The notes beneath the pieces are model-generated. The model ran no database searches, had not been told where the DNA came from, and saw only the letters and a program-made list of their open reading frames with translations. The position numbers and the translations under genes were made by a program. Positions 18,312-43,564 of a DNA stretch of 64,000 bases are shown here, piece by piece (position 1 is the first letter of the stretch; every line of letters starts with the position of its first letter). The DNA is taken from NCBI GenBank assembly GCA_037355855.1, contig CM074759.1, positions 6,448,001-6,512,000 on the forward strand, read 5' to 3'. The DNA comes from Pseudo-nitzschia pungens. Taxonomy: Eukaryota > Bacillariophyta > Bacillariophyceae > Bacillariales > Bacillariaceae.

Positions 18312-18859
18312 GTCTGAAAACTGTTTCGCGACCCCTCCCAAGAATTTATTTGGGGGGGTCGCGATTTATTCCTGGCTCATTTTGACGTAGCTCGATTCCT
18401 AGCTCTCTCGCGATTCGCAACCCCAATCGCGACCCAGTTACTACCTCAATTAGGAGAAAAAAAAATAAAATTCAAACAAGACCCAAATTTTTTTGTAAGA
18501 CTCAAATATTTTTCTTCAGTCACTTAATCAAATTAATCAACCCCATTCTAATTTTCTCGTGCTTTTTTCAGAAAAATTAATTCTTTTTTTTGAACACGGC
18601 ACAAATTATTTCCCGGCACGCCCCTCAAGAAATTCCAGCATACATTCAAAAAATTCTTCACAAAAATTATGGACTACTCCAGAAATCACGACCCCTCTCC
18701 TCACACAAATCACGACCCTCCCATAAAAGATTTTGAATTATTGTGATGCAAAACCAGTCAATCTTTCAAAAAAATTTTAGAATTTATAGTAACAATTTTA
18801 TTCTCGATTCGTTTTTTCTTGTTCCCACCACCACACAAATTTACTTCCTATATCATATT

Positions 18860-19330
18860 TGAGTTGTGATCGCATCATATTTCAGTTGCAATAGGATCAT
18901 ATTTCAGTTGCAATAGGATCATATTTGAGTTGCGATCGGATCATATTTCAGTTGCGATCCCATCATATTTCCTCAGTTGCGATCCCATCATATTTGAGTT
19001 GCGATCGGATCATATTTCAGTTGCGATCGGATCATATTTCAGTTGCGATCGGATCATATTTCAGTTGCGATCGGATCATATTTCAGTTGCGATCCCATCA
19101 TATTTCCTCAGTTGCAATCCCATCATATTTGAGTTGCGATCCCATCATATTTCCTCAGTTGCGATCGCATCATATTTGAGTTGCGATTGCATCATCATAT
19201 TTCCTCAGTTGCGATCGCATCAGATTGTTTGAGTTGCGATCGCATCATTTTTGAGTTGCGATCCCATTATGTGTCAGTTGCCCCGTCGCATCATTTTTCA
19301 GTTGCCCCGTCACATTAAAGTTGATTCTTC
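18860..19330. repeat. 22-bp minisatellite (GATC/CATATTTCAG type)
   Basis: About 20 units of the form TTGCGATCGGATCATATTTC plus AG, with variants TTGAG, CCTCAG and GATCCC. A shorter inverted version lies at about 42540-42700 in E2. No conserved spacers, so not a CRISPR array. Confidence 0.85.
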
Positions 19331-19929
19331 CCTATCAGTAGCAAGCAGGCAACTCAGTGCAGAATTAGAACAATTGAAATCCATCATCAATACCCCAGAT
19401 CTTGATGTGCTTCACTCACCGTTGCATTATATTTCATTTGCCGTTGCATCCTATTTCATCAGCAGTTGCGGTCGCCTCCCTATTAGGAGCAAGCAGGCAA
19501 GTCAATGATGCACAGTTAGACAAATCAAAATCCATTATTAATACCTCCTCCAACCTTGATGTGGTTCACTTACCATTTCCAGGTGCCGTCTTTCTTGTTC
19601 CATTCCGACCCAAAATTATGTGAAGTAAGATTTACGACACATGCATTTTCTGTCATGCATTTATTTGCTGAGAATTGATTTCTTCTACATGATAGCAGTA
19701 GAGTTACTACTAGTAGTATGTACGGTACCGAAGTAATAGTAGAAACCAGTAGAAACCTGATGGTGGTATTGCGCGCCACCTAAACCACAGAGAGCCTGCC
19801 CCGCTGCGCCATAATTTTGGACTACCTCTTATGTACTACTACCTAGTACGCACTGCAGTAGTATGTAGCAGCAGTGTATAACTGTACTACTCTTACAAGC
19901 AGCAAGAATAGTACTACCTCAGTGAATAT

Positions 19930-20472
19930 ACCATCAAATCAAATATCTGAATGAATCTGGCCAATCTTTGTGTGATTCCAGTGTGAATATTTCTCATCCT
20001 ATTAATGGGCAAGAGAATTCAAAAAGAAGTATTCAAAAATCACCAATGGTATGGGTGTCACCACTGAATAATTAATATTTGTTCCACTACTGCGGAATTT
20101 ACAAGAAAAAAGTACCAAATCACATATCTGAATGAATCTGGCCAATAGTTGTATGATTCCAGTGTGAATATTCCTCATACTGTGCATGGGCAAGAGTATG
20201 CAAAAAGAAGTATTCAAAAATCACCAATAGTTTGGGTGTCACCACTGAATAATTAATATTTAGCCCAGTACTGCGGAATGTACTAGAAAATACTGTAAAA
20301 TCACATACCTGAATGAATCTGGTCAGTATTCCTGTGATTCCAGTGTGAATATTCCTCATCATATGCATGGGCAAGACTATGCAAAAAGAAGTATTCAAAA
20401 ATCACCAATAATTTGGATGTCACCACTGAATAATTAATATTTGGCCCGGTACTGTGGAATTTACTAGAAAAT
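19930..20472. repeat. ~180-bp satellite, E1 part left of the gypsy
   Basis: About three units, each with AATGAATCTGGCCAAT, GATTCCAGTGTGAATATTCC, GTATTCAAAAATCACCAAT and CACTGAATAATTAATATTTG. The array resumes at 26352 after the gypsy insertion, and seven inverted units occur in E2. Confidence 0.85.
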
Positions 20473-20657
20473 TGCCGTGCACCGGAATACAGTCACGAGT
20501 CTACTCGGGACTGGATTAAGGTTGAGGATAAATTAGCGAGGCGTTGGAATCGCCGATTCCAAATGCCAATCGAAAGCAATAGCAATAGACTAATTGATAG
20601 AGCTCACAATTTGCATATCACTACTATTCTAATCACTAGTAGACCCGGGGTATGGCA
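20473..20657 (+). repeat. 5' LTR of the gypsy element
   Basis: 185 bp, TG...CA ends. Matches the 3' LTR with no difference that I could find by eye. Confidence 0.93.
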
Positions 20658-21432
20658 TGATTTTAAAATCAAGCTGAGCGCTGATGACCATGAGCAGAAA
20701 GGTACCGATCGACCAAGGCGCCGACGGGACCGAAAGACTGCCAAAAATGGAGGCGCAGAGAAGCAAAACAGGGAGAAGGATATCCAGTGTCTGCAGCACA
20801 AGGAAGACCGACCCCAGCAGTGGTTAGCCCCAGAAGAAGGAGCAACAGCAGCAACAGAGACACCTAAGGACCCAAACAGGACCATGGTCGACAACAAGAA
20901 TAATCGAAAAATTCGAAAATACACACTGAAAAAGTGACACATAATCCAGTGAGTGGACTAATTGGACCAACACTGAGTGGACGGACAGACCAAAAAGGGT
21001 ATGCCGACCAAAACCAGAACATATAAATATCCGGACAGGTATAAAATAAATACCTAAACACCACTAAATCCCACGGGAGACAGGAAGTGGGACCGGCCCG
21101 GTGAGTGCTTAATAGGGAAGCAACGCCGGAGAACCACGGGAATCGAATCCCACGAAATAAAAACAGAAACAACTCTGGAGAACCACAGGATTCCCGGGAA
21201 CTAAAGAGAGAAACAACTCCCACCACTGGACAAGCCTAAAGCAAAATCAGTTACAACACGGAATAACGTGTATTACGAAAGGGGAAAATCAGTTACAACA
21301 CGGGATATCGTGTAGACAAAGAGAAAACTGGAGCAAACTGAAACAACCACTTTTTGCTCATTTCCACCCCAAATAACAACTTACAGAAATACTGTAACTA
21401 AACTAAAGTAAATAAAAAGAAACTGATTAACC

Positions 21433-22872
21433 ATGGCGTCTAAAGGAACCAAACTGAAACCCTTCAACATCACACGGGAGGACTGGCTGGAAGACGCCAC
21501 CACCGTAAAGATGAATGTAGACAGCGAACAAGGTGGAATCGCATTCAGCGACTACCTGAAGGTTCTCAATGGTACTGAAAGACCAGAACTCTTCCTTATC
21601 TGGAAGAGAGACTTTGACCAGAAAATTGCTGGCAATGACAAACTCAACGGAGACCAGAAATTGGAGGTTCTACAGAGAATTCTCTCTACTGAGGCACTCG
21701 GACTTGTCCAGCGAACGCTCGCTCGGACCTACTTGGCCGAACCAACCCACAAGGTCCATCACACCAGACACGTACAGAAAAAGATCCAAGAGATCGAGCA
21801 AAGGGACCAAGCAAACATACTACTATCAATGGGGCAAGACGCCACCGAAACTCCCACGGGAGCCTCCAAGGAGACGGCAAAGGAGAAACCTCCAAACGCC
21901 GACAAAACCGACACAGCCACGGCGAGATCGGACAAAGAATCGGAGACCGACAACCTCGAGTCTCCAATCCCAAAGAAGAAGGTCGCAAGCGCCCTCATCC
22001 AGTACTACCAATCCCAGGAGTACAGAAAGGATGTCATCGAGGAATGCATGCATGCCCTCAAGCTCAAAATCTTTGGCAATGACCAACACGGCAAGCGCTC
22101 GTATATCGTCCTCCGCCGATTCATGCGAGGCATGCGCGTGGACCTCAAACATGGCATTAGAGCCTGGGCCAATCGAATGGCCGAACTCCAAAGCTACCTC
22201 CCAGAATGCCTCTGGGAATGTGGCAGTGACCAAATGGAAACACCAAGAAGTTTCACCCAAGGAGAAATGAAGGAAATCTTGGATTCCAACATGACCCACT
22301 CCCAACGCGAGAAGCTGGAGCACATTAGTTGGGACCTCTACACCCACTCCTTTAACACCACTATCGACAAGCTCGAAAACCTGGAAATCACCATCCGGAA
22401 GGAAGCAGTAATGCAACAACGCATCACCGACCTCGAAAAGCAGACCGGTGTCACCAAGAAGACCTCCAAGGCCGCATCTGGGGGAGGAACCCACCACGGG
22501 AAATCCCCTGGCAAAAAGAAGCGCCCTGTGGACAACAGCAACAAACAGCTATGCAAGACCTGTGGCAAGGTCCATGCCGGCAAATGCTGGAAACTAACCG
22601 GTGGTCCCCACAAGAAGGGGAAGTTCGACCGGGAAACCATCAACCTGCTCAAGGAGCACTTTGTGGCAAAAGAACAAGACTCGGACAACGAGCAACACTC
22701 CAAACCCCACTGGGGAAGGAACTTATCAAACCACGAGTACTCTTATGTACTGGCCACGGCCCAAGCTGACCACGAAGTCTCCGATGACGAGATCGACATC
22801 TCCGAACGGGAACTCAAAGAGTACAGAAGAAAGTACAGAAAGACCTTTAAAAAGAAAGGATCCCACAACTGA
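21433..22872 (+). CDS. gag: retrotransposon Gag polyprotein
   Basis: 479 residues from ATG 21433. A conserved helical N-terminal part (FSDYLKVLNGTERPELF, IWKRDFDQKIAGNDKL) also occurs in the relic copy at 30512. It is followed by a charged linker and a zinc-knuckle-like CKTCGKVHAGKC near residues 375-386, then an acidic/basic tail. It would assemble the virus-like particle and bind element RNA. It ends in TGA at 22870-22872, directly followed by the pol ATG in the same frame. Leader of about 775 nt upstream. Confidence 0.9.
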   Translation: MASKGTKLKPFNITREDWLEDATTVKMNVDSEQGGIAFSDYLKVLNGTERPELFLIWKRDFDQKIAGNDKLNGDQKLEVLQRILSTEALGLVQRTLARTYLAEPTHKVHHTRHVQKKIQEIEQRDQANILLSMGQDATETPTGASKETAKEKPPNADKTDTATARSDKESETDNLESPIPKKKVASALIQYYQSQEYRKDVIEECMHALKLKIFGNDQHGKRSYIVLRRFMRGMRVDLKHGIRAWANRMAELQSYLPECLWECGSDQMETPRSFTQGEMKEILDSNMTHSQREKLEHISWDLYTHSFNTTIDKLENLEITIRKEAVMQQRITDLEKQTGVTKKTSKAASGGGTHHGKSPGKKKRPVDNSNKQLCKTCGKVHAGKCWKLTGGPHKKGKFDRETINLLKEHFVAKEQDSDNEQHSKPHWGRNLSNHEYSYVLATAQADHEVSDDEIDISERELKEYRRKYRKTFKKKGSHN

Positions 22873-25800
22873 ATGGCCAATACCATCCACACCGGACCAC
22901 GCATAATCAATCGATTTGCGGACGTCTGTGTGGAGGTATTGGACCATAAAGGAAGGGGGAGGATGCTCCGGGGCCTACTGGACTCAGGTTGCTCCAAGTC
23001 CATAATTCTAAGGCAATTTGTCGACCGAAGTCAACTAACGAACCGAGACCACAGATCTGTCACCTATAATACCTATGGGGGCAAGTTCCGAACCAAGTCT
23101 GCGGCTTCAGTGGGACTGAGGTTGATAGAATTTTCAAACTCCAAGACCATCAAATGGACCTTCCAAGTGGATGAATATCATCACCATGAGGAGGTGCCCT
23201 ACGACATGATCATAGGATCCGACATGATGGCACAACTGGGACTGGATATAAAATACAGCTCCCGAACCATCGAATGGCAGGGTGACTCCATCCCCATGAA
23301 GGGAATGGGGGAACTTACTGACCCGGACAAATGTGAGGCAGTATTCTTTGCCAACACACAAAGTCCGATCCTCCAACAGGAGGAAGAGAGGCAAGCCAAA
23401 ATCTTGGACGCAGACTACTCCAAAGTTGATATAGACGCCATGGTCAATGACCTGGAGATTACGGACGCGTCCAAGGAAGCCTTGAAGAAAACACTGAAGA
23501 AATTCCCAACACTCTTTGGAGGAGGGTTGGGTCTACTCAAAAATATAGAACCGGTGTCCATTGAGCTCCAACCAGGAGTCAAACCGGTCCGGCAGAGGTA
23601 CTACTCTGTGCCCCATGCCTTTGAACAAGCACTTCGAAAGGAGATCACCAGGCTCTGTGAGATTGGAGTCCTGGAGAAACTCCCCCACGATGATGACTCA
23701 CCGTGGGCATCCCCTACCTTCTGCCAACCAAAGAAGACAGGCGATATCCGAGTCCTCACAGACTTCCGGAAAATGAACGCCGCCATCCAGAGGAAACCAT
23801 TCCCACTGCCACGAATAGGGGAAACAATCCAACGACTACAGAAGTTCCAATCAGCTACGGCGCTGGACTTGTCCCAAGGATACTATACCATCCCCATCTG
23901 CAAAGAGAGCCAGAAAATCTGCTCCACCATCCTGCCGTGGGGAAAGTATGCCTACAAGAGACTAGCAATGGGGATTGCCTGCGCTCCTGACATATTCCAG
24001 TCAGTAATGATGAACCTACTAGGGGACCTGGACTACGTCCTTGTCTATATTGATGATATCCTGATCATTCAACGAGAGGGAGAATCCGAACAGGATCACC
24101 TCAACAAAATCGATACAGTCCTACAGAGACTGGATGATGCCGGCTTCCGAGCCAACCTCAGAAAATCCTTCTTCATGCAAAAAGAAGTGGAGTATTTGGG
24201 GTTTCTACTAACAACAGAGGGCATTCAACCCCAGCCAAAGAAACTGGAGGCGATGAAGCGCCTGGAACCCCCCAAGAACACCAAGCAACTCAAGATGTTC
24301 CTTGGGATGGTCAACTTTTACAGGGACATGTGGAAGCGCCGCTCCCACATCCTGGCCCCCCTCAACAAGCTTGCAGGGAAAAAGGGAAAACTGAACTGGT
24401 ACTGGGGCCCAGCAGAGCAGAAAGCTTTCATGGAGGCGAAGAGGATGCTCGCAGATGAAGCGAAACTCGCATTCCCGGATTTTACGAAACCATTTCACCT
24501 CTACTCAGACGCCAGTGACAGGCAACTGGGAGCAACCGTATGTCAAGATGGCAAACCCCTTGGTTTCTACACAAGGAAACTGAACTCAGCGCAGCTCAAC
24601 TACACTGTCGGGGAAAAAGAACTCCTTGGTATAGTGGAGGGCTTGAAAGCGTTTGAGGGAATCCTACGAGGACAAGATGTAATTATTCACACAGACCACC
24701 TTAACCTGCTCTATCAGCAGATGCCCACCCAAAGGATGGTCCGATGGAGACTCCTCATGGAGGAGTTCCACCCCGTAGTCAAGCACATTGCTGGCAAAGA
24801 CAACGATGCAGCAGACGCGTTGTCCCGACTGGACATCACAGATGACCCAGCGGACACAGTGGAATGGCTACCACCAAATAAGCCCCTCACCTACGCGGAT
24901 GAGGAAGAGCACCTCCGGCAACTCCTATTCCCACTTGGAGAAGCGCCGGAAGAATTCCAGGGCAATAGTGCATTCCCACTTGCCCCGGACATGATTCAGT
25001 TCTACCAGCAACAGGACACAGGAATCGTGAATGCTCTGGAAAAAGACAACCGCCTAACCACCAAAAATGTGGAAGGTTACAGTCTAATCCACAAGGAAGG
25101 GAAGATTCTGATCCCGGACAAACTCAAGGATAGAGTTATGGAATGGTACCACAGCATGTTGGTCCATCCCGGAGAAAAGAGAATGGAACAGAGCATACGC
25201 TCAGTGTTCACCTGGAAAGGCCTACGGAAGGACGTTCAGGACCTCTGCAAACACTGCCACACGTGTCAGATGTTTAAGAAGAGTGGCCGGAAGAAGTATG
25301 GACTACTACCGGAAAAAGCAGCTGAGGTCACCAAATGGCAGAGGGTCAATGTGGACCTCTGGGGACCTGCAACTGTCCACAACAAAAATGGTAAAGACTA
25401 CCAAATCCATGTCCTCACCATGGTGGACCCAGTGACCGGATGGTTTGAACTGGCTCACCTGAAGGACTCCCCAAATGCAGCAGAAACTCAACGATTGTTG
25501 GACAGTACCTGGCTGGCAAGATATCCGCGCCCAAAGGAAATTGGCTTTGATGGCGGAAGTGAGTTCAAAGCAGAGTTCCAAGAGCTCTGCGAGAACATGG
25601 GGATGAAAAGAAAGCCCAGTGGGGCTTGGAACCCACAATCCAACTCGGTGTTGGAAAGGATCCATCAGGTATTAAAGGACTGTCTGTTGTCCTTCAACCT
25701 GGAAAACAGGGACCTCCACGAGGAGGACCCTTTTGAGGAATTCACCACCAAGGCAGCATATGCTATCAGAAGCGCCATCCATACCACCCTGGGGTACTCC

Positions 25801-26142
25801 CCAGCGCAACTGGTGTTTGGTCGAGACATGTTCATGCCGGTGAACTTCCCAGTGGATTGGGAAGCAATCCAAGCAAGGAAGCAGAAAAGCATCCACAAGA
25901 GCAACATCAGGGAAAACCAGAAGAGGATCCCCCATGTCTATAAAGAAGGAGACTATGTCACCCTGGAAAGGAAGGGCATTATTCCAAAACTATCCTTCCC
26001 ACGGCAAGGACCTTACAAGGTGCTCAAGGCCCATGATAATGGAACTGTAACTATTGAAACTGCTCCTTTTGTAACTGACCGGGTTAACATCAGGAGAGTC
26101 CATCCCTATTATTGCAGGGATAGCCCTGAACCAGAGAAGTAA
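22873..26142 (+). CDS. pol: retrotransposon Pol polyprotein (protease, RT, RNase H, integrase)
   Basis: 1089 residues. Aspartic protease with LLDSGCSKSII (about residues 36-46); reverse transcriptase with LTDFRKMN, LDLSQGYY and the catalytic YIDD (about 391-394); RNase H with YSDAS (about 544) and HTDHLNL (about 606); integrase with an H...H...CxxC zinc domain (about 760-800, CKHCHTC) and a D,D-35-E type core (VDLWGP, FDGGSEF, SVLERIH). No chromodomain is seen after the integrase. Frame equals that of gag and only one TGA separates them, so it is made either by stop readthrough or by reinitiation at the adjacent ATG. All catalytic motifs are intact. Confidence 0.93.
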   Translation: MANTIHTGPRIINRFADVCVEVLDHKGRGRMLRGLLDSGCSKSIILRQFVDRSQLTNRDHRSVTYNTYGGKFRTKSAASVGLRLIEFSNSKTIKWTFQVDEYHHHEEVPYDMIIGSDMMAQLGLDIKYSSRTIEWQGDSIPMKGMGELTDPDKCEAVFFANTQSPILQQEEERQAKILDADYSKVDIDAMVNDLEITDASKEALKKTLKKFPTLFGGGLGLLKNIEPVSIELQPGVKPVRQRYYSVPHAFEQALRKEITRLCEIGVLEKLPHDDDSPWASPTFCQPKKTGDIRVLTDFRKMNAAIQRKPFPLPRIGETIQRLQKFQSATALDLSQGYYTIPICKESQKICSTILPWGKYAYKRLAMGIACAPDIFQSVMMNLLGDLDYVLVYIDDILIIQREGESEQDHLNKIDTVLQRLDDAGFRANLRKSFFMQKEVEYLGFLLTTEGIQPQPKKLEAMKRLEPPKNTKQLKMFLGMVNFYRDMWKRRSHILAPLNKLAGKKGKLNWYWGPAEQKAFMEAKRMLADEAKLAFPDFTKPFHLYSDASDRQLGATVCQDGKPLGFYTRKLNSAQLNYTVGEKELLGIVEGLKAFEGILRGQDVIIHTDHLNLLYQQMPTQRMVRWRLLMEEFHPVVKHIAGKDNDAADALSRLDITDDPADTVEWLPPNKPLTYADEEEHLRQLLFPLGEAPEEFQGNSAFPLAPDMIQFYQQQDTGIVNALEKDNRLTTKNVEGYSLIHKEGKILIPDKLKDRVMEWYHSMLVHPGEKRMEQSIRSVFTWKGLRKDVQDLCKHCHTCQMFKKSGRKKYGLLPEKAAEVTKWQRVNVDLWGPATVHNKNGKDYQIHVLTMVDPVTGWFELAHLKDSPNAAETQRLLDSTWLARYPRPKEIGFDGGSEFKAEFQELCENMGMKRKPSGAWNPQSNSVLERIHQVLKDCLLSFNLENRDLHEEDPFEEFTTKAAYAIRSAIHTTLGYSPAQLVFGRDMFMPVNFPVDWEAIQARKQKSIHKSNIRENQKRIPHVYKEGDYVTLERKGIIPKLSFPRQGPYKVLKAHDNGTVTIETAPFVTDRVNIRRVHPYYCRDSPEPEK

Positions 26143-26166
26143 TTGTTACAGTACCATGGAGGAGCA

Positions 26167-26351
26167 TGCCGTGCACCGGAATACAGTCACGAGTCTACTC
26201 GGGACTGGATTAAGGTTGAGGATAAATTAGCGAGGCGTTGGAATCGCCGATTCCAAATGCCAATCGAAAGCAATAGCAATAGACTAATTGATAGAGCTCA
26301 CAATTTGCATATCACTACTATTCTAATCACTAGTAGACCCGGGGTATGGCA
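26167..26351 (+). repeat. 3' LTR of the gypsy element
   Basis: 185 bp, TG...CA ends, followed by AAAAT, the right copy of the target duplication. Confidence 0.93.
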
Positions 26352-26690
26352 AAAATACTGTAAAATCACATATCGGAATGAATCTGGCCAATCTTTGTGT
26401 GATTCCAGTGTGTATATTCCTCATACTGTGCCTGGGCAAGAGTATGCAAAAAGAAGTATTCAAAAATCACGGATGATATGGGTGTCACCACTGAATATTT
26501 AAAATATTTGGTCCACTACTGCGGAATTTACTAGAAAAAAGTACCAAATCAAATATCTGAACAAATCTGGCCAATAGTTGTATGATTCCAGTGTGAATAT
26601 TCCTCATACTGTGCATGGGCAAGAGTATGCAAAAAGAAGTATTCAAAAATCACCAATGGTATGGATGTCACCATTGAATAACTGAATAGA
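26352..26690. repeat. ~180-bp satellite, E1 part right of the gypsy
   Basis: About two units continuing the array of 19930-20472. The junction across the gypsy (CTAGAAAAT then ACTGTAAAATCACAT) restores a unit seen whole at 20283. Confidence 0.82.
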
Positions 26691-28035
26691 GCACTTAGTG
26701 ACATGTGCTTCGCAGCAAAAATATTGCTATTTCATTGTAAAAAGATATTGCCGGGGCAGGACTTTAACCAACCACACCACAGTGTTTGCATCCGACAGTG
26801 CCACTATTACTATCTCCTGCTTGTAGCATGGTTTTATCTCTAATTCATAATGCTACTACGATCTCGGGTAAGGCTCATCCTGTATAATATGTACCAACAG
26901 TAAGGTACCGTATCTCCACCTCCACCACTTCGCGCCAAAAGATTTGTACCAGTACTGTACGTACAGTATACACAGTACTCGTACATTGCTGTCATTTTTT
27001 CCAGTCAGCCTGTACACACAGTACCGTAAAGCACGTAATAAAGCACTAAAGCACTACGTCACAGTGGCAGATCGATTTTCCGCCCCACATCTCCCCCTTC
27101 CGATGTGTCATAATTTTCATTTTCATTTTCATTTTCGTTTCAATTCTTGCATCGGAATATTCTGGCCGGTCCAGTTTAACCTAGCCATCAGGCACCGGGA
27201 CCATCTCTTTTGAAAAAGACACACGCTGTGGGGAGCTTGAGAACGGCCGCTCTTGCTTCCTGCTCTGTTGTCCGATTCATATCACGGAGGTCGGGTGTGT
27301 TGAAGTCCTGGAACTACCTGGCTTACCCAGATATACGACGTACTGATATTGAAAACAACGAAAAGGAAGACGAAAATCACCACCGATTGGTGCGGAGACG
27401 GACGACGACGACGACGACGAAGGTACGATCGCTCCAGAGAGGGACGACGGGGGTACGGTCGCTACGATCGCTTCTAACAGGATGTTTGTTGTTATTTTTA
27501 CTTTCGTCTTGCCATAGGGGAACGACGGCAACGACAAAGAGGAAGGTACGATCGCTTCGGACAGGGACGACGGCGGGTACGATCGCTTCGGACAGGGACG
27601 ATCGGGTACGACGAATGACGAACGACGACGAACGGTACGATCGCTCCAGAGAGGGCCGACGAGGGTACGGTCGCTACGATCGCTTCTAACAGGATGTTTG
27701 TTGTTATTTTTACTTTCGTCTTTCCATAGGGGAACGACGGCAACGATCGGGTACGACGACGAACGACGACGACAACGAAGGTACGGGCCGACGGGGGTAC
27801 GATCGCTCCAGAGAGGGCCGACGGGGGTACGATCGCTTCGAACGTGTCTAACAGGAGTTTGGATTGCTGAAGAGGAGAACGACCAATACAATTGTTGAAG
27901 AGGGGAACGACGGATACGATTGCTGAAGAGGGGAACGACCAATACGATTGCTGAAGAGGGGAACGACCGATACAATCGCTGACAAGGAAAGACAACCCCA
28001 ACGACAAGGAAAGACGGCGATAGTTCTTTAACAAT
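26691..28035. repeat. E1 unique block and CGACGA/GTACGATCGC duplications
   Basis: The part 26700-27200 is unique apart from E2 (inverse near 40180-40690). From 27390 to 28030 blocks with GGTACGATCGCT and GGGACGACGG repeat, including a direct duplication of the stretch with AACAGGATGTTTGTTGTTAT (27476 and 27688). Open frames in all directions are low complexity. No gene supported. Confidence 0.6.
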
Positions 28036-28039
28036 ATTC

Positions 28040-29470
28040 TCGTGTATTATCCCCCCTGTATTATCGACGCGTTGCTGCTTGCTGTCCCCCCTGTATTGTT
28101 GACGCGTTGGTTGCTGCTTGCTGTCCCCCCCCTGTATTATCGACGCGTTTATATTATCGACTCGTTTATATTATTGACGCGTTGCTGCTGCTTGCTGTCC
28201 CCCCCTGTATTATCGACGCGTTGCTGCTGCTTGCTGTCCCCCCTGTATTATCGACGCGTTGCTGCTGTTTGCTGTCCCCCCGTGTATTATCGACGCGTTG
28301 CTCCTGCTTGCTGTTGCCCCCTGTATTATCGACGCGTTGCTGCTGCTTGCTGTCCCCCCTCTATATTATCGACGCGTTGCTGCTTGCTGTCCCCCCTCTG
28401 TATTGTCGACGCGTTGCTGCTTGCTGTCCCCCTGTATTATCGACGCGTTTGTACTATCGACGCGTTGCTGCTGCTTGCTGTCCCCCCTGTATTATCGACG
28501 CGTTTGTACTATCGACGCGTTGCTGCTGCTTGCTGTCCCCCCTGTATTATCGACGCGTTGCTGCTGCTTGCTGTCCCCCCTGTATTATCGACGCGTTGCT
28601 GCTTGCTGTCCCCCTGTATTATCGACGCGTTGCTGCTGCTTGCTGTCCCACATGTATTATCGACGCGTTGCTGCTTGCTGTCCCCCTGTATTATCGACGC
28701 GTTGCTGCTGCTTGCTGTCCCACCTGTATTATCGACGCGTTTGTATTATCGACGTGTTGCTGCTGCTTGCTGTCCCCCCACCTGTATTATCGACGCGTTG
28801 CTGCTTGCTGTCCCCCTCTATTATCGACGCGTTGCTGCAGCTTGCTGCTTGCTGTCCCCCCCCCTGTATTATCGACGCGTTCGTTGTTCTTTGCTGTTTG
28901 CTGTCCCCCCCCCCTTGTATTATCGACGCGTTGCTGCTTGCTGCTGCTTGCTGTCCCCCCTGTTTTCATTTTTTTTCTACATAAATCCCTGTACAATTTG
29001 TACTGGAAAATTGAATTTTTTGATTGGCTCATTCACTCAGCACCTCTATCTGCTTGCTGCTTGCTGTCCCTGTATTATCGACGCGTTGCTGCTTGCTGTT
29101 TGCTGTCCCCCCTGTATTATCGAAGTGTTGCTGCTGCTTGCTGTCCCCCCCCTGTATTATCGACGCGTTGCTGCTTGCTGCTGCTTGTTGTCCACCCCTG
29201 TATTATCGACGCGTTGCTGTTTGCTGTTTGCTGTCCCCCCTGTATTATCGACGCGTTGCTGCTGCTTGCTGTCCCCCCCCCTGTATTATCGACGCGTTGC
29301 TGCTGCTTGCTGTCCCCCCCCCTGTATTATCGACGTGTTGCTGCTGCTTGCTGTCCCCCCTGTATTATCGACGCGTTGCTCCTGCTTGCTGTCGCCCCCT
29401 GTATTATCGACGCGTTGCTGTTTGCTGTTTGCTGTCCCCCCCTGTATTATCGACGCGTTGCTGCTTGTAA
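28040..29470. repeat. ~38-bp GC-rich minisatellite in E1
   Basis: About 35 units of the type CTGTATTATCGACGCGTTGC followed by TGCTGCTTGCTGTCCCCC. Length varies by C-tract size, by CTG number and by deletion. The unit has no stop codon in any of the three forward frames, which explains the long overlapping open frames. The inverse array in E2 is at 37810-39490. Confidence 0.9.
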
Positions 29471-29810
29471 AAAAGGTTTACAATGGTGCGAGACATAATT
29501 TTTGTGTGATTGAAGTAAATTTGATTAAAAATTATTTGTTGTGTTGAGTCTAATGTGTCAAATGTGTAAAATGGAATGAAAATATGACGAGGGACTGAAT
29601 ATCAGGGTCTAGATCTGAACATTTGTCTCGGACCATTGGGGGAGTTGAGAAAAGGGAGAAATATGGTTGAGAATAATGGAAAAAAGTTGAGAATAATGGA
29701 AAAAAGGTTGTGAAATAAAAAATTGGGGTCGTGTTTTTTTTAGACAAGTCGCGATCCGGTCGCGATCTGGTCGCGATTGGTCGCGATGGGTCGCGAAACA
29801 GTTTTCGGAC

Positions 29811-31188: not shown

Positions 31189-31189
31189 A

Positions 31190-32205: not shown

Positions 32206-32980
32206 TGAAAAAGTGAGCAAACAGGGAATTTTATTCCATTTTATTCAGCGTTTGGAGACTCGACTGGCAGAAATTTTGATAGACACGAGTCCTGTCTTTT
32301 TAATAATGCAACGGAAGGTTGCACACCTCCGTGTTAATATACGGAGAAAAAAACTACTGTTCGAGCAATGTTAAGGGGGTCTCAGAAGCAACCGGTACTG
32401 TACTCTCAGCCATTAAAAATGGTCCCATGCGTTAAAAAATGAGACGTACATAGGATTGTACGTATGTATACATACTATGTAGTAGGAGTTGCACGGGCGC
32501 GCAGCGCGCGCAACAACGGTTGCATTTTACCGATACCGTACTTTTCATTTCCGTGGTACATTTTCTACTTTTTTGTACGGTCAACGTTCATTTATTGAGT
32601 GATTCCCGAAACTAATTACATTATTCGTGACGTGGCACACATATTATTTGTCGCCTGTAACATACTTATATGAAATTTTTAACTGATTTTTTCATATTCT
32701 GGAGGAGGCAAATTTGCCTCCTCCAGAATATGCAACTGTAATAAAATTTTTAGGGAATCTTGAAAACAAGAACCGACTCTCAAATTTCAGTCACTCAACG
32801 GATGTCAGTCACCCAACGGTCGACAAAGATGTGTTTGTTTTTCGGCCACTCGGAGTATGTTTTTTTGTTAACCTTTTTTCTTTTGTCTTTGCCACAGTCC
32901 GTGTTGCCACTCTTGTTGCTGCTTTTGCTGTTTTATTGCACCTCTTTTATTCCCAACCATCCAAATCAAATCAAAGAACA
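32206..32980. other. spacer between the recombinase fragment and the Harbinger genes
   Basis: Contains a GC palindrome (GGGCGCGCAGCGCGCGCAAC near 32498) and TGAGTGATTCCCGAAACTAA near 32596. The latter's inverse is near 36105 and may mark sub-terminal repeats of the Harbinger element. Confidence 0.45.
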
Positions 32981-34504: not shown

Positions 34505-34671
34505 AAGACAGTGATTTACAGAGTAATTTATGGAGTTTTTCTTTGCCAGGAACATAAGTATACCTGTTGTTTAGGCTAAAGGCTAATTTTAGTACTTATC
34601 AAACCAAAACCTGAAATATATAATTAACTCAATCAAAACGATCGAATCGAAACGATCGAAATCGAAACGCG

Positions 34672-35856: not shown

Positions 35857-37512
35857 GGTGGTGGTATTGTTATTGTTATTTTCGATCGAAATAAAAAGTG
35901 TTTTTTGTTGGAGATATAACTCCCCCCTGTTGTTGAGGATAACAACAAAGGCAAAAAAAGCGAGTGAAACGGCGAGTACAAGAAAATTAACGGGTTGCTG
36001 GCGCGCTAAAAATTGGCAATAGAGGCGTGGGTAGGGAATAAAGAGTGCATTTTTTGTTTTTCGAAACAAGATTCCAAATTCCAAAATATGCCAACGCATA
36101 TAGTTTCGGGAATCACTCATTAGGAACGCACACATATCGGTCATAGTTCAATTATTTTGGTAATCCGAAGTTTTCTCGGATGAGCACGTGCACTCGCGCC
36201 TAAGTAATAATTTGAAAAAGGGCGCACAACGGAAAAAATGAGAGTCATTTCTTTAGTAATCGAGTTATTTCTTTGGTAATGAATTGCATTTCTTTGGCAA
36301 TGAATTGCATTACTTTGGAATTGCTTGGAATTGATCCTCCCAGAACGCACAAAGGCACTCACCAGAAAGGGACAAAGCATATGCCAAAAATAAGCTGAGA
36401 ATGGTCAAATGGACCCATTTCTTGCCAGAGAGCGGACCATGGTGAATATTGAGGCTGTAGATGCCAAAAAGAGATCTTCGTGGAATTCGTTGCAGCGTTA
36501 GAAAACGCTCGTAGTTCATCGCACTTGGTGGTTGTCGTGGGAGAGGGAAACCGATTCAATCGCCTGGCCCTGTCCACCGCTCAGCTTGGAAAAAAGGGCC
36601 GGTTCATTGGCCAAGGGGGTTGAATGATGGCGGCGGCTTGGGCCAGTCGCGCACCCACAAACATGGCAGCCAATTTTTGGCTTTTGTGTTGCTCCAACGT
36701 ACCAGTAGAACTCTTCTCCATGGTCGAAAGCAAAAAGAAGCAGTGGGTGAGTGAATTGGAAACAGCAAGAACCCCACACGCATCAGCACCAAGAGCAGAC
36801 GCATCAGCAATAAGAAAAAAAACAGATGCAGCAGCAACAACAGCAGACGCTGCAGACGCCGCCGCAGCAACAACAACAGCAGCAGCAGACGCAGCAGCAG
36901 CAGCCACGAACGCAACAACAGCAGACGCAGACGCAGCAGCGGCAACAACAGCAGCAGCAGCCAAGAATGCAACAGCAGCAACGGCAGCCGCAGCAGACGC
37001 CATAGCAAAGCGGACGCTGTGAAGCAGTCGCAGCAGAAGCAACAGTACAGCAGACGCCGCAGAAAATCAGACGCAGCGAAGCAGAAGCAACGCCACACGC
37101 ATCAGCAGCAACAGCAAACTTCGTGTTCCGGCTCATCGAATCCGAGGATCGGTGCTCTCATTGTTGCTGAGCAGAGGAACTGGGCTTTTACCATGGCCGA
37201 CAGCAAATTTGCTTTTGAAAACTGATCGGTTTCGAAATTATGGCAACAGACGCGATGGCAACCGACGCGACAGCAGCAACGACAGCAACAGACGTGACGG
37301 CAACAGATGCCACAGCAGCAACAATGACAGCAACAACAGCAACAGCGACGCGTTAGAGGACTTACAGGAGCAGAGGAACTGGGTTCAACCATGGTCGACA
37401 GCAAATTTGCTTTTGAAAACTGATCAGTTTTGAAATTATGAACAAATAGTGGGATCCAAAAAAAAAGAAGCAACACGATAACACCTTCTAAAGATGTAGG
37501 GCTCAGTACTAC
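35857..37512. other. Harbinger flank and CAG-rich spacer
   Basis: 36820-37345 is rich in CAG/CAA/GAC triplets (CAGCAGCAGCAGACGC type), open in several frames and not supported as a gene. A ~70-bp direct repeat beginning GAGCAGAGGAACTGGG lies at 37171 and 37371 (both with CAGCAAATTTGCTTTTGAAA). Confidence 0.6.
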
Positions 37513-37809
37513 GTCCGAAAACTGGTTCGCGACCCATCGCGACCAATCGCGACCGGATCGCGACCCAATCGCGACTTGTCTCAGAAAAATGCGACCCCAA
37601 TTTTTTATTTCACAACCTTTTTTCCATTATTCTCAACCTTGTTTCTCCTTTTTCTCCACCCCCGCAACGTTCCCAGGAAAATGTTCTGATCTAGACCCTG
37701 GTATTCAGTCCCTCGTCACCCTTTCATTCCATTTTACACATTTGACACATTTGACTCAACATAACAAATAATTTTTAATCAGATTAACTTCAATCACACG
37801 AAAGTGACA

Positions 37810-39490
37810 GCATAACCGTGGGGACAGCAAGCAGCAGCAACGCGTCAATAATACAAACGCGTCGATAATACAGAGGGGGGACAGCAAGCAGCAGCAACGC
37901 GTCGATAATACAGCAGGGGGGACAGCAAGCAGCAGCAACGCGTCGATAATACAGCAGGGGGGACAGCAAGCAGCAGCAACGCGTCAATAATACAAACGCG
38001 TCGATAATACAGCAGGGGGGACAGCAAGCAGCAGCAACGCGTCGATAATACAAACGCGTCGATAATACAGGGGGGACAGCAAGCAGCAGCAACGCGTCAA
38101 TAATACAGGGGAACAGCAAGCAGCAGCAACGCGTCGATAATACAGGGGGGGACAGCAAGCAGCAGCAAGCAGCAACGCATCGATAATACAGGGGGGGGAC
38201 AGCAAGCAGCAATGCGTCGATAATACAGGGGGGGACAGCAAGCAGCAAGCAGCAGCAACGCGTCGATAATACAGGGGGGGGACAGCAAGCAGCAACGCGT
38301 CGATAATACAGGGGGGGACAGCAAGCAGCAAGCAGCAGCAACGCGTCTCGAGAATACAAACGCGTCGATAATACAGGGGGGGGACAGCAAGCAGCAAGCA
38401 GCAGCAACGCGTCGATAATACAGAGGGGGACAGCAAGCAGCAACGCGTCAATAATACAGAAGGAGCAACTCGTCTACAATACAGGGGGGGGGGGACAGCA
38501 AGCAGCAGAAAGCAGCAGCAAGCAGCAACCAACGCGTCGATAATACAGGGGAGACAGCAAGCAGAAAGCAGCAGCAACGCGTCGATAATACAGGGGGGGG
38601 ACAGCAAGCAGCAACGCGTCAATAATACAGAAGGAGCAACTCGTCTACAATACAGGGGGGGGGGGGACAGCAAGCAGCAGAAAGCAGCAGCAAGCAGCAA
38701 CCAACGCGTCGATAATACAGGGGAGACAGCAAGCAGCAACGAACGCGTCAAAAATACAGGGGGGGCAGCAACGAACGCGTCAAAAATACAGGGGGGACAG
38801 CAAGCAGCAACGAACGCGTTGAAAATACAGGGGGGACAGCAAGCAGCAAGCAGCAACAAATGCGTCGACAATACAGGGGGGACAGCAAGCAGCAACGAAT
38901 GCGTCGAAAATACAGGGGGGACAGCAATTAGCAATTAGCAAGCAGCAACGAACGCGTTGACAATACAGGGGGGACAGCAAGCAGTAACGAACGCGTCAAA
39001 AATACAGGGGGGACAGCAAGCAGCAAGCAGCAACGAACGCGTCGACAATACAGGGGGGACAGCAATTTTCAACGAACGCGTCGAAAATACAGGGGGGACA
39101 GCAAGCAGCAGCAACACGTCGATAATACAGGGGGGACAGCAAGCAGCAAGCAGCAACGCGTCGATAATACAGGGGGGGACAGCAAGCAGCAGCAACACGT
39201 CGATAATACAGGGGGGACAGCAAGCAGCAAGCAGCAACGCGTCGATAATACAGGGGGGGACAGCAAGCAGCAGCAACGCGTCGATAATACAAACGCGTCA
39301 ATAATACAGGGGGGACAGCAAGCAGCAACGCGTCGATAATACAGGGGGGACAGCAAGCAGCAACGCGTCGATAATACAGGGGGGGACAGCAAGCAGCAGC
39401 AACAACGCGTCGATATTACAGGGGGGGGACAGCAAGAAGCAGCAACGCGTCGATATTACAGGGGGCAACGATAATACAGGGGGGATAATA
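37810..39490. repeat. ~38-bp minisatellite in E2 (inverse of the E1 array)
   Basis: About 40 units of the form GGGGGGACAGCAAGCAGCAG with CAACGCGTCGATAATACA. A sub-block (38740-39100) has AACGAACGCGTCAAAAATAC variants. Two larger duplications start at about 38433 and 38604. Confidence 0.9.
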
Positions 39491-40689
39491 CACGAGAATA
39501 TTTTTAAACAACTATCGCCGTCTTTCGATCGTATCGGTCGTTCCCCTCTTCAACAATCGTATCGGTCGGTCGTCGTTCCCCTCGTCGTCGTCCTTGAAAT
39601 CGTCATTGCTCTTCGTTTCGATCGTCGTCGTCGTCCTTGAAATCGTCGTTGCTCTTCGCTTCGATCGTCTTTGTCGTTGCTCTTCGTTTCGATCGTCGTC
39701 GTCGTCATCCTTGAAATCGGTATTCAATTACAGTACCTTTTAGTGTTGTCGTCCCTCTTTCTTCTGATCGTCTCTGTCGTTGCTCTTTGCTACGATCTGT
39801 GTGTGGTTGTACAAAATAAACAACGGGCGGTTAGTCGTCATCGTCGTCGTCGTCGTCGTCCCGGTCGTCGTCGTCGTCCCCCTCTTCTACGATCGTACCT
39901 TCGTCGTACCTTATAGTGTCTTCGGTCTTCGTTGTTCCAATCGTCGTCGTCGTCTGCAGGTTCGTTTGCGCGTCGTACTCGTAGATATCTGGGTAAGCCA
40001 GATGACTCAAGGTCTGCAGCCCACCCTACCTTGATAACAAAAGATAACAGGAAGGATTTCAAGAGTGATCAGTTCTTTACTTTCTTTGCCATTAGTCTCT
40101 CCAAGATGGTACCAGGCGCCTTGCTCTCACTTTAAACTGGTCCGGCCAGAAAATTCCAACACCGAAACGAAAATGAAAATTATGACACATCCTCCACGAG
40201 GGAGATGTGGGGCGGAAAATCGATCTGCCACTGTGACGTAGTGCTTTAGTGCTTTATTACGTGCTATGTACGTACTTTACAGTACTAAGTGTACAGGCTG
40301 AGAAAAAAAATGACAGGTCTGTGCATACCCGTTCCTAGTAGGTACCGACACTACGTACAGGCTGGGGATGTGTAGGTTTCCAGTACGGTGTAAACGGTAC
40401 GTATAAACTGTACGTACGGTACTGGTACAAATCCTTTGGCGCGAAGTGGTGGAGGTACGGTAACTTAGTGTTGGTACATATTATACAGGATGAGCCTTCC
40501 CCGAGATGGTGGTAGCATTAAAACATGGAGAGAACACCTGTTTAGCAGTAGTAGACAGTAATAGTGGCACTACTGGATTGTATGCAGTTGGTATTGTTGG
40601 TTCGAGTCCCATCACGGGAATGTCTTTTGCTACATCACGATGCAATAGAAATATTTTTGCTGCGAAGCATTTGTCACCAAGTGATCTAT

Positions 40690-41930
40690 TCAGTTATTCA
40701 ATGGTGACATCCATACCATTGGTGATTTTTGAATACTTCTTTTTGCATACTCTTGCCCATGCATAGGATGAGAAATATTCACACTGGAATCACAAAATAT
40801 TGACTAGATTCATTCACATATTTGATTTTACAGCAGTTTCTACTAAATGCTGCGGTACTGGGCCAAATATTAATTATTCAGTGGTGACATCCAAATTATT
40901 GGTGATTTTTGAATACTTCTTTTTGCATACTCTTGCCCATGCATAGGATGAGAAATATTCACACTGGAATCACAGGAATACTGACCAGATTCATTCAGGT
41001 ATGTGATTTTACAGTATTTTCTAGTACATTCTCCAGTAGTTGGCCAAATATTAATTATTCTGTGGTGACACCAAAATTATTGGTGATTTGTGAATACTTC
41101 TTTTTGAATAGTCTTGCCCATGCACAGGATGAGAAATATTCACACTGGAATCACACAAAGAATGACCAGATTCATTCTGATATGTGATTTGGTACTTTTT
41201 TCTAGCAAATTCCGCAGTAGTGGGCCAAATATTAATTATTCAGTGGTGACACCCAAATTATAGGTGATTTTTGAATACTTCTTTTTGAATAGTCTTGCCC
41301 ATGCACAGGATGAGAAATATTCACACTGGAATCACACAACTATTGGCCGCATTCATTCAGATATGTGATTTGGTACTTGTTTGTAGTAAATTCCGCAGTA
41401 GTGGAATAAATATTAATTATTCAGTGGTGACACCCAAATTATTGGTGATTTTTGAATACTTCTTTTGGAATACTCTTGCCCATGCACAGTATGAGGAATA
41501 TTCACACTGGAATCACACAACTATTGGCCAGATTCATTCCGATATGTGATTTGCTACTTTTTTCTAGTAAATTCCGCAGTAGTGGAACAAATATTAATTA
41601 TTCAGTGGTGACACCCATACCATTGGTGATTTTTGAATACTTCTTTTTGCATACTCTTGCCCATGGATAGGATGAGAAATATTCACACTGGAATCACACA
41701 AAGATTGGCCAGATTCATTCAGATATGTGATTTTACAGTATTTTCTACTAGTAAATTCCGCAGTACTGGGCCAACTACTAATTATTCAGTGGTGACATCC
41801 AAATTATTGGTGATTTGTGAATACTTCTTTTTGAATAGTCTTGCCCATGCATAGGATGAGAAATATTCACACTGGAATCACACAAAGAATGGCCAGATTC
41901 ATTCAGATATTTGATTTGATGGTATATTCA
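40690..41930. repeat. ~180-bp satellite array in E2
   Basis: Seven units whose start (ATTCAGTGGTGACATCC or similar) falls at about 40697, 40878, 41057, 41238, 41418, 41599 and 41783, spacing 179-184 bp. Each carries GATTTTTGAATACTTC, CTTGCCCATGCA and ATTCACACTGGAATCACA. Confidence 0.9.
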
Positions 41931-43564
41931 CTGAGGTAGTACTATTCTTGCTGCTTGTAGTAGTAGTACAGTTATACACTGCTGCTACATACTACTGCAG
42001 TGCGTAGGTAGTAGTACATAAGAGGTAGTCCAAAATTATGGCGCAGCGGGGCTGGCTCTCTGTGGTTTAGGTGGCGCGCGATATCACCATCATCAGCTTT
42101 CTACTGGTTTCTACTATTACTTCAGTACGGTACATACTTACTAGTAGTAACTCTACTGCTATCATGTAGAAGAAATCAATTCTCGGCAAACACATGCATG
42201 ACAGAAAATGCATGTGTCGTAAATCTTACTTCACATAATTTTGGGTCGGAACGGAACAAGAAAGACGGCAACTGAAATATAATGAGATGGAAATGGTAAG
42301 TGAACCACATCAAGGTTGGAGGAGGTATTAATAATGGATTTTGATTCGTCTAACTGTGCATCATTGACTTGCCTGCTTGCTCCTGATAGGGAGGCGACCG
42401 CAACTGCTGATGAAATAGGATGCAACGGCAAATGAAATATAATGCAACGGTGAGTGAAGCACATCAAGATCTGGGGTATTGATAATGGATTTCAATTGTT
42501 CTAATTCTGAATTGAGTTGCCTGCTTGCTACTGATAGGGAAGAATCAACTTTAGTAATGCGACGGGGCAACTGAAAAATGATGCGAAAAATGATGCGACG
42601 GGGCAACTGACACATATTGCGATCACAAGACAAATATGATGTGATCGCAACGGACAAAATGATGCGATTGCAACTGATGAAATATGATGCGATGTGAGGA
42701 GACCTTTACTGGCAGTACAGATACCGGTATGGATGAAATTATCACGATGACCATTATTTAAAAATCGTTTGAACCAAAATTTGTGTGGTGTGCATGAGGA
42801 CGAAGACGATCGGAGCAAAGAGCAACGACAATTTCAAGGACAACGAAGACGATCGAAGCAAAGAGCAACGACGATTTCAGAGAGGACGACGAAGACAATC
42901 GAAGCGAAGAGCAACGACAATTTCAGAGAGGACGACGATTTCAGGGAGGACGACAAAGAGGAAGGCAATTTGGAGCGAAGAGCAACGACGACTTCAGGGA
43001 GGACGAAGACGATCGAAGCGAGAAGCAACGACGACTTCAAGGACGACGAAGACAAGGACGATCGAAACGAAGAGCGACGACGATTTCAAGGACGATGACT
43101 TCTTTTAACGAACCAAAATTTGTGTGTGCGTGTGTGAGAAAATTGAACAGAGAATAAACAATTATTAGAGTAATATCAATATTTATCAAAAGAAAGACTT
43201 ATATTTTGCATCATAGTGTTTCAAATTTTTTTTTCATGGGGGTCGCGATGCCTGGGCTTCGGGTAATAATTGTGATTTTTGTGATGAATTTCTTGAGGGG
43301 TGTGATGGGAAATACTTTGTGTCGGGATGAGAAATCAATTTTTGGGAGTGAATTTCTGCAACAGTCTCATAATATATAATGATGGTAGGGTCGGTAATAA
43401 TGAGTCAGATTAAAAAAAATTTGCAATTGAGGTAGTTAGTGGGTCGCGATTGGGGTTGCGAATCGCGAGAGGGCTACGAGTGGAGCTACGTCAAAATGAG
43501 CCAGGAATAAATCGCGACCCCCCTAAATAAATTCTTGGGAGGGGTCGCGAAACAGTTTTCGGAC

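Follow-up and report, generated by a model that had tools for sequence, protein, structure and literature searches.

The 64,000-nucleotide stretch of DNA that we analysed, hereafter the window, contains two real mobile elements, E1 and E2. Both lack a transposase and carry a cassette of satellite arrays. The same ordered cassette occurs within at least four families of element ends, here named F1 to F4. Hence, satellites seem to spread by riding on transposons and by changing between them. The sharing of one cassette by four sets of ends is new and goes beyond what a sequence-only reading of the window had expected. Coordinates are collected in Table 1.

We focused on the ends of E1 and E2. 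A 20-bp end motif occurs four times in the window, at 18312 (+), 29810 (-), 37513 (+) and 43564 (-), and is inverted pairwise as the sequence-only reading had proposed. The motif was absent from 100 shuffled windows. The F1 end starts with C (CGTCCGAAAACTG...), and the base preceding GTCC is C in 42/42 end rows, which represent 40 distinct places, four of them in the window. This C belongs to the element. Hence, only 2 bp are duplicated at the target, TA for both E1 and E2, rather than the perfect GTAC first read at E1. The apparent GTAC consists of TA, the element's own C or G and one chance flanking base per side. The borders of E2 read ...CTA[C and G]TAA.... For E1, the empty site is readable: positions 18087-18310 and 29812-31188 form a single retroelement that E1 interrupts. 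These flanks are collinear with relatives at 20473-22121 and 43831-44164, both uninterrupted at the insertion point of E1. The former has GGTACC once, as at E1, and the latter has GGAACC.

Table 1. Features of E1, E2 and E3 in the window
Feature	Position	Strand	Note
Older retroelement copy, left part (right part 29812-31188)	18087..18310	+	interrupted by E1
TSD TA, left copy, E1	18309..18310	.	
E1, nonautonomous F1 element, A end left / B end right	18311..29811	+	11,501 bp; ends, length, empty site
22-bp array, E1	18852..19305	+	
181-bp satellite, E1, left part (resumes 26352-26681)	19936..20472	+	
Nested Ty3/gypsy-type LTR retrotransposon in E1	20473..26351	+	LTRs 20473-20657 / 26167-26351, TSD AAAAT
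181-bp satellite, E1, right part	26352..26681	+	
38/39-bp array, E1	28050..29465	+	
TSD TA, right copy, E1	29812..29813	.	
TSD TA, left copy, E2	37510..37511	.	
E2, nonautonomous F1 element, B end left / A end right	37512..43565	-	6,054 bp; ends, length
39-bp array, E2 cassette	37856..39465	-	several overlapping repeat rows
U block, unique sequence adjoining 181-bp array, tracer for cassette exchange	40470..40693	-	
181-bp satellite, E2, 6.8 copies	40694..41919	-	
46-bp array, E2, near A end	42799..42938	-	
TSD TA, right copy, E2	43566..43567	.	
E3 (family F3) A end	44165..44187	+	E3 runs from 44165
Accessory ORF in E3, homologous to P0006 (F1)	45023..45922	-	
Accessory ORF in E3, homologous to P0005 (F1)	45897..46712	-	
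E3 Plavaka transposase, PF18759 in N-terminal half	47148..50336	-	one in-frame TGA 48834-48836
ORF P0111, HxD...H pattern, assigned to E3	52731..54038	-	

E1 and E2 lie in opposite orientation and keep their arrays in one order: 22/23-bp, 181-bp, 28/46-bp and 39-bp. This agrees with the first reading, which saw at least four arrays in one internal order. Its length of ~6 kb for both elements holds for E2. E1 reaches 11.5 kb since its satellite houses a recently inserted Ty3/gypsy-type retrotransposon; without this insertion, E1 measures ~5.6 kb. The 185-bp LTRs of the retrotransposon are identical to each other and its duplication is 5 bp. Its ORFs are gag-like (by position) and pol, with RVT, RNaseH and integrase domains. 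Hence, the claim that no coding gene is present is true of E2 only. Neither an Rfam scan (gathering threshold) nor a tRNA scan returned a match in the window.

The F1 end has 457 matches with ≤2 mismatches across 66.9 Mb; the reversed control has none. The shared ends are 24 bp long and lie within a conserved A end (~140 bp) or B end (~290 bp), the latter rich in TCGCGACC. These two sub-terminal types were recognised correctly at first, but they are two ends of one element and not two types of element. The search for paired inverted ends with flanking duplications was positive: a 2-bp target duplication was found in 31/34 F1 candidate pairs, in addition to E1 and E2, and all 31 such pairs are A...B. 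The three pairs lacking a duplication are one A...A and two tentative B...A pairings that span a nested cluster containing further ends. Flanks never matched over 3 bp (0/24 pairs) and matched over 2 bp instead; with the constant C before GTCC, this excludes GTAC as the duplication. The duplications vary (TA, AA, CA, GG, CG, AG and others), which rules out a TA-only target of the Tc1/mariner-like kind. The A and B sides diverge beyond the first ~24 bp, and F1 does not show the long TIRs holding tandem repeats of Foldback elements. F1 is a large family that was probably active recently. The F1 elements that we fetched were drawn from the first 100 exact ends and hence favour young copies.

An autonomous copy with a transposase had been sought, and such copies exist. 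They span 14.1-16.6 kb and have at least five long ORFs, one of which is a DDE transposase. A stop-to-stop ORF of 1081-1089 aa is kept in 6/6 fetched F1 copies of ~15 kb. Among 42 transposase candidates scored out of 254, 23 are stop-free over residues 3-1089 or more, with 95-100% identity. One 6-kb passenger (L025) retains 219 aa of open frame from the start of the transposase. Together with the paired ends and duplications, these copies support the earlier idea of a TIR family that carries satellites and disperses tandem repeats.

Briefly, in an alignment of 33 transposases (A1), D399 is conserved in at least 90%, while D509, C531-xx-C534, H770-xxx-H774 and E794 are invariant. PMC12730594 reports a C(2)C and H(3-4)H layout between the second D and E for the Plavaka/CMCT clade, and a Plavaka target duplication of 2 bp (or 3 bp). 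The Pfam Plavaka profile PF18759 matched 21/33 A1 members at E≤0.001, not all above the curated cut-off, and one of two homologues scanned scored below it (24.5 vs 26.3). The N-terminal half of the E3 transposase (ORF 48837-50336) matched with E 7.2e-8 and 32.5 bits (cut-off 26.3). P0001 of F1 did not match even at E 1. Hence, F1 is placed in Plavaka through its homologues and E3. The features found are PF18759 by this route, D-D-E with C(2)C and H(3-4)H, and the 2-bp duplication. The transposase thus belongs in kind to the Plavaka group (CMC/CACTA-like), and the family, first called undescribed, is not wholly so. Its termini differ from those given for fungal PlavakaA and PlavakaB in PMC12730594 (TGT...ACA or CATCA...TGATG). 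F1 has CGTCCG...CGGACG and F2-F4 have CGTCT...AGACG. Since F1 ends begin CGTC in 42/42 rows, we file F1 in neither PlavakaA nor PlavakaB. Nor do F1 ends show the CA..TG termini that the same source gives for the CMCT clade 'in most cases'. The PIF/Harbinger domain DDE_Tnp_4 was not matched by P0001 or A1 members. A Harbinger-like DDE_Tnp_4 ORF at 34675-36147 was rejected as the engine: it lies between E1 and E2, in neither, and its family does not match. A PDB search with the transposase profile found no relative, and a search with P0002 found no homologue at E≤0.001.

The cassette spans ~4 kb and comprises 22-bp, 181-bp, 46-bp and 39-bp arrays separated by unique blocks. It occurs in the same order between F2, F3 and F4 ends, with duplications AG, TA and AA, respectively; order and orientation are the same in the three non-F1 carriers read. 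The F1-F4 ends have only their first ~13 bp in common, in the pattern CGTCYRWWAACTG (F2 also ends AATG; F4 CGTCTGTTAACTG). No alignment was obtained between the terminal regions of F1 and those of either F3 or F4. As a tracer we used the U block, scoring 40 of ~170 candidates per search. Its identity is 97.9-98.9% between F4 and F1, 95% between F2 and E2 and 97% between F2 and F3. The nearest other-family copy is 95-99% identical for F2 and F4, and 95-97% for seven pair-labelled F3 copies. In contrast, F1 and E3 (F3) transposases are only 51-58% identical as proteins. Hence, the identity of the cassette is hard to explain without exchange. Consistent with this, a U-block tree of 27 pair-labelled rows rejected F1, F2 and F3 as clades (p 3e-5, 4e-4 and 0.004), in tests set up after pairwise identities and a tree had been inspected; F4 as a clade was not rejected. 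The block is short (~190-226 bp), over half of the internal branchings are poorly supported and the bootstrap had yet to converge. The full tree has 33 rows. The 27-row tree omits L093, L094 and L101 (one-end labels) and L103, L107 and L108 (no family). In both trees, family labels come mostly from end pairs rather than from reading whole elements.

We consider it very probable, for the explanation as a whole, that autonomous F1 copies mobilise satellite-bearing copies of the E1/E2 type and that the cassette changes families by recombination. E1 and E2 would be nonautonomous cut-and-paste elements of a Plavaka-group (CMC/CACTA-like) family. The 14-17 kb autonomous copies would supply a DDE transposase that recognises the shared 24-bp ends, also in trans; it would excise the element and reinsert it, creating a 2-bp target duplication. 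Nonautonomous copies have lost most or all genes and carry the satellite cassette. We infer that the cassette moves between families most likely via homologous recombination or gap repair, with a template switch in or near the tandem arrays. Such a switch would leave an element with its own ends and another family's interior.

A bolder version is possible but doubtful. Here, the ~4-kb cassette is a semi-independent passenger that entered at least four families by interior swapping, transposases disperse its satellites, and the ~181-bp length is kept for function. A length of ~181 bp may be nucleosome-related. Autonomous F1 copies have their own ~181-190-bp array in 6/6 cases, so the period recurs in these copies and in the F1-F4 cassettes, with sequence nearly or wholly diverged between both. 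With lenient scoring, comparison of the autonomous ~183-bp array with the cassette 181-bp array gave scores of 32 and 36, where the best of 100 shuffles reached 23 and 25; with strict scoring the similarity did not exceed shuffles. The arrays could then be a working part, for transposase binding, nucleosome phasing or silencing escape, and ~181-bp units would persist for that reason. We think this unlikely: one of two fetched F2 elements (L081) has neither cassette nor ~181-bp array, and in L028 the 181-bp array is down to part of one unit.

Alternatively, F1 elements could have landed within F2, F3 or F4 elements, with subsequent loss of the F1 ends. Nesting is common, with several nests in the window and the F2 element of L072 inside an F1 B end. 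However, F1 terminal sequence was not detected in the F3 (L080) or F4 (L079) carriers, and the F2 carrier (L072) resembles the B end over 43 bp alone, at 79%. At L109, the F3 A end leads through F3 sequence to the array with no F1 end (≤2 mismatches, first 13 bp). Four further U blocks flanked by F4 ends match the L079 block at 98-100% identity; among these F4 elements, only L079 was read fully. Hence, nesting is improbable as the source of sharing. Inheritance of the cassette by all four families from one ancestor, with only the ends diverging, is less probable still. The constant order and orientation, the common first 13 bp and the array in autonomous copies, weakly similar under lenient scoring alone, would fit such descent. 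The U-block and transposase identities, the unaligned longer termini and the rejected clades conflict with it. Recombination between families remains our preferred reading.

We next consider where satellites lie. Exact 30-mer satellite matches were placed on C1-C4 up to C4:6.05 Mb, using 57 of 100 listed (1177 in total); seven listed C4 matches past this point, beyond the end list, were dropped. Ends were 100 of 457 plus 100 of 223 for F1, 73/73 for F2 and 100 of 127 for F3 (C1-C4 part); not all 127 F3 matches are ends, as two lie inside the F2 element of L072. Among the matches listed, 29/42 clusters fall inside F1-F3 pairs, which are at most 22 kb wide and together occupy 2.7% of C1-C4. Three lie in a nested outer pair or F4 pairs, five have one correct end, one adjoins a decayed F1 end and four have no correctly placed end. 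The last group and L078, its one cluster read, a satellite fragment without ends, fit independent expansion in place, with elements landing in or beside free arrays, but this is the least probable account given the concentration in pairs, the same internal place of the array in elements read and the lack of any long free array among the 100 matches listed.

The dispersal of satellites is an old question; arrays are often found near transposons and the link is guessed. Here, one genome shows vehicle, ends, duplications, a probable engine and interchange of the load, in many young copies. Helitrons are rolling-circle elements and are not known to have a TIR or duplication. Helitrons and Helentrons, for instance in Crassostrea gigas, likewise have central tandem arrays between conserved ends, and one array type occurs across different Helitron elements (PMC12628747). 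Unlike these, the ordered multi-array cassette recurs in four families that bear the marks of cut-and-paste transposition. The foldback element Tetris of Drosophila virilis, whose internal tandem repeats measure ~220 bp, is likewise nonautonomous and seeds satellites. According to PMC4079207, however, its duplications are 8-10 bp, its repeats lie in long TIRs and an autonomous partner was not found, whereas F1 has same-end transposase copies and several arrays between short TIRs. Jozin and satellite CficCl-61-40 of Chenopodium also tie a CMC/CACTA-like element to tandem arrays (PMC7320549). There, a transposase fragment seeds the satellite; in F1-F4, arrays ride in nonautonomous copies and change families. 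Fungal PlavakaA and PlavakaB (CMCT clade; PMC12730594) share with F1 the Plavaka-type DDE, C(2)C and H(3)H between the second D and last E, and 2-bp duplications. F1 differs in its diatom-like host, at least five long ORFs and satellite-bearing nonautonomous derivatives. F1 also extends Plavaka by a lineage with several genes, whose termini differ from those described in fungi. Among the open-licence titles listed, none concerned diatom Plavaka or a cassette common to several cut-and-paste families; Repbase lay outside this search. Near-identical autonomous copies and short passengers provide material for a transposition assay.

E3 is a third Plavaka element, of the related family F3, and its transposase is disrupted; its right end was not found within the window. 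A search with its ORF at 45023-45922 returned no homologue at E≤0.001. The pattern in P0111, seen by eye, could suggest a 2-oxoglutarate oxygenase, which Pfam and PDB searches with a single sequence or profile did not confirm. Fungal Plavaka elements may carry TET/JBP genes, according to PMC12730594. We assigned P0111 to E3 because of its position and its relatives between F3 ends elsewhere.

We searched 66.88 Mb of the genome, in 28 contigs, for the ends of F1, the family of elements E1 and E2; the window corresponds to C2:6448001-6512000. Within the window, the end motif occurs four times, as the two inverted pairs claimed by the sequence-only reading; 100 shuffles gave none. Across the genome there were 227 forward and 230 reverse matches with up to two mismatches, none for a reversed control motif and 223 for the exact GG variant of the end. 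The base preceding GTCC is C in all 42 aligned end rows (40 distinct places). Counting this C as part of the element, the flanking 2 bp are equal on both sides in 23 of 24 candidate pairs (TA, AA, TT, AT, AG, CA, GG, CG, AC and TG), where chance predicts about 1 in 16. No 3-bp match flanks any of these 24. Further candidate pairs agreed in 8 of 10 cases. In all, a 2-bp duplication was present in 31 of 34 candidate pairs. All 31 matched pairs join an A end to a B end; the other three are one A...A and two B...A guesses spanning a nested cluster. At least ten exact F1 ends form a nested cluster in 92 kb at C1:3612646-3704475.

The same reading had called for an autonomous copy with a transposase. 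Six F1 pairs, spaced 14.1-16.6 kb apart, contain long stop-to-stop ORFs including this enzyme. Briefly, the DDE transposase P0001 (1081-1089 aa, stop to stop) lies close to the B end and is followed by P0002 (732-790 aa, with a Cys-rich stretch). P0003/P0004 is acidic, with conservation in its C-terminal part and a frame that differs among copies; P0005 and P0006 are two shorter ORFs. Searches in a set of libraries that varied among ORFs assigned no function to P0002-P0006. P0001 has 104 homologues, the best with 49% identity over 95%. Those with a source name come from 'Psemu1', which we take to be the diatom Pseudo-nitzschia multiseries, so the host is likely to be a diatom or a near relative. 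Among 33 aligned transposase members, 21 gave a Plavaka match with E<=0.001. The alignment shows conservation of the catalytic and zinc-type residues, and PMC12730594 reports the same layout for the clade. We scored 42 transposase copies from 254 candidate genome places; 23 are practically full length, free of stops and 95-100% identical. Hence, F1 has probably been active recently.

The length of E1 is due to an LTR retrotransposon within its 181-bp array. E1 in turn splits an older copy of the same retroelement family, and two relatives in the window that have no interruption at that point display the empty site. In a tblastn search of the window, the sole match of P0001-P0006 to E1 and E2 was 41 residues of P0002, inside the 46-bp array of E2. 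Since the ends of E2 align with autonomous ends (A, 94-96% over ~140 bp; B, 83-89% over ~290-315 bp), the natural reading would be mobilisation by the F1 transposase. Elsewhere in the window, a Harbinger-like ORF and a DUF6818 ORF possibly represent a separate two-gene element.

Positions of features in the window
Feature	Position	Strand	Remarks
Fragments of Ty3/gypsy-type relative	18087-18310 with 29812-31188		older copy of the nested LTR element's family, split by E1
E1	18311-29811
LTR retrotransposon, Ty3/gypsy-type	20473-26351		nested in E1; identical 185-bp LTRs, AAAAT duplication on both sides
DUF6818 ORF	32687-33745	+
Inverted TGTCCTCAA arrays	33850-34114		between DUF6818 and DDE_Tnp_4 ORFs
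DDE_Tnp_4 ORF	34675-36147	-	Harbinger-like
E2	37512-43565
Fragment of Ty3/gypsy-type relative	43831-44164		older; ends at E3
E3, A end	from 44165		starts CGTCTGATAACTG...
22-bp array (ATTTTAGAGGCAACGCCCATTA)	44282-44917		directly inside E3 A end
P0111	52731-54038	-
ORF	55429-56145		host-gene-like by eye
500 N	57234-57733		assembly gap or withheld stretch

We sampled eight nonautonomous F1 elements of 4.7-8.9 kb (L021-L028). Seven carry the cassette, an ordered block of 22-bp, 181-bp, 46-bp and 39-bp arrays with unique sequence; in L028 its 181-bp array is cut down to part of one unit. The one element without it, L027, is a shortened copy retaining a 965-aa piece of the transposase frame. L025 combines the cassette with an open stretch of 219 aa from the start of the transposase, which suggests that nonautonomous copies descend from autonomous ones by deletion.

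The cassette was also found between other ends. Five loci were read around satellites for which no exact F1 ends were listed. Of these, L071 is an F1 element whose ends are variant (duplication TA/TA), L072 an F2 element (AG/AG), L079 an F4 element (AA/AA), L077 a decayed F1 copy and L078 a fragment. Two loci fetched as family members, L080 and L081, belong to F3 (TA/TA) and F2 (TT/TT), respectively. In L072, L079 and L080, the 181-bp array, the adjoining unique U block and the 39-bp array are arranged and oriented alike with respect to A and B; L081 lacks the cassette. The first 13 bp of the four ends are alike (CGTCCGAAAACTG, CGTCTRATAAMTG, CGTCTRATAACTG, CGTCTGTTAACTG). Hence, the end types probably share an origin, and several of the families might use a single enzyme. 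Beyond these, neither the terminal 140 bp of F1 nor its sub-terminal 540 bp nor the 290 bp of its B side aligned to F3 or F4; the F2 element of L072 aligned over just 43 bp. This F2 element (L072:615-9293) sits inside the B end of an F1 element and contains two distinct, adjacent 181-bp arrays.

With up to three mismatches allowed, the pattern of the 181-bp monomer gave 1177 matches. Exact matches among those listed for C1-C4, up to C4:6.05 Mb, form 42 clusters. Among these, 29 are enclosed by listed F1, F2 or F3 ends that converge (pairs up to 22.4 kb); such listed pairs span 2.7% of C1-C4. Adding C2:7937805, within an outer nested F1 pair, and C2:4893994 and C3:4911342, within F4 pairs, brings the total inside end pairs to 32 of 42. 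Still among the matches listed, five of the remaining clusters have one correctly placed end and four have none; at C2:4324493 there is a decayed F1 end. On the A side, each of the six autonomous copies carries an array with a period of 181-190 bp, not similar to the satellite with strict scoring and weakly similar with lenient scoring. It is a fair reading that the ~181-bp satellite is an old resident of these elements; that its length has a function is conjecture.

We compared U blocks across families, which are set by ends. F4 copies are 97.9-98.9% identical to the F1 copy L024. The F2 copy in L072 shares 95% identity with E2 and 98.7% with L101, an F3-side copy labelled from one end only; that in L102 is 97% identical to F3 copies. 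L093, likewise F3-side by one end only, is 100% identical to two F1 copies over ~189 bp. In its neighbourhood (L109), an F3 A end leads through F3 sub-terminal sequence to the array, with no F1 end between. This array is 95% like that of F1 L025 and 91% like that of F3 L080. In a tree of all 33 U-block rows, F1, F2 and F3 were rejected as clades, and 8 family changes are required. The three were again rejected among the 27 rows between paired ends, which require at least four changes; here F4 forms one group (support 87/86). Both sets of tests were made after identities and a tree had been inspected, on a short block whose bootstrap had not settled.

On the B side, the similarity of F1 to F2, F3 and F4 breaks off within the 39-bp array or where that array ends. 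On the A side, it breaks off near the 22-bp array in F2 and F3, and in unique sequence in F4. Together with the common cassette order, these breakpoints suggest that interiors could be swapped within the arrays or close to them, by homologous recombination or template switching. Repair of excision gaps is one way in which cut-and-paste elements exchange internal sequence. PMC4079207, PMC12628747 and PMC7320549 already describe nonautonomous elements with tandem arrays, and the review PMC12628747 points out that different Helitron elements carry the same arrays. Our literature search, with Repbase outside it, found among the titles listed none on an ordered cassette common to four cut-and-paste families, or on Plavaka in diatoms.

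To the right of E2, a retroelement fragment breaks off where the A end of E3 starts. This is the A end of a third family, F3, whose ends have 127 matches with up to three mismatches (A and B together, some internal ones included). Further in from this end come homologues of P0006 and P0005, then a Plavaka transposase with 51-58% identity to P0001 and one in-frame TGA, so the window contains a broken relative of the engine. A search of the window for the right end of E3 found none; the run of 500 N lies near its expected position, if E3 were as long as other F3 pairs. A 22-bp array similar in appearance to that of E3 occupies the same place in the F3 copy L080. The ORF P0111, assigned to E3, recurs between F3 ends, and copies between F2 ends are ~62% similar. 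Copies lie at C1:4831087, C6:4841687, C1:3242791 and C10:2866942. The first, between F2-type ends, is 92% identical to that in the window, and three others between F2-type ends are 62-63% identical. These identities hint that genes, too, may be exchanged between families. H356, D358 and H408 of P0111 are invariant and, by eye only, the protein resembles a 2-oxoglutarate oxygenase.
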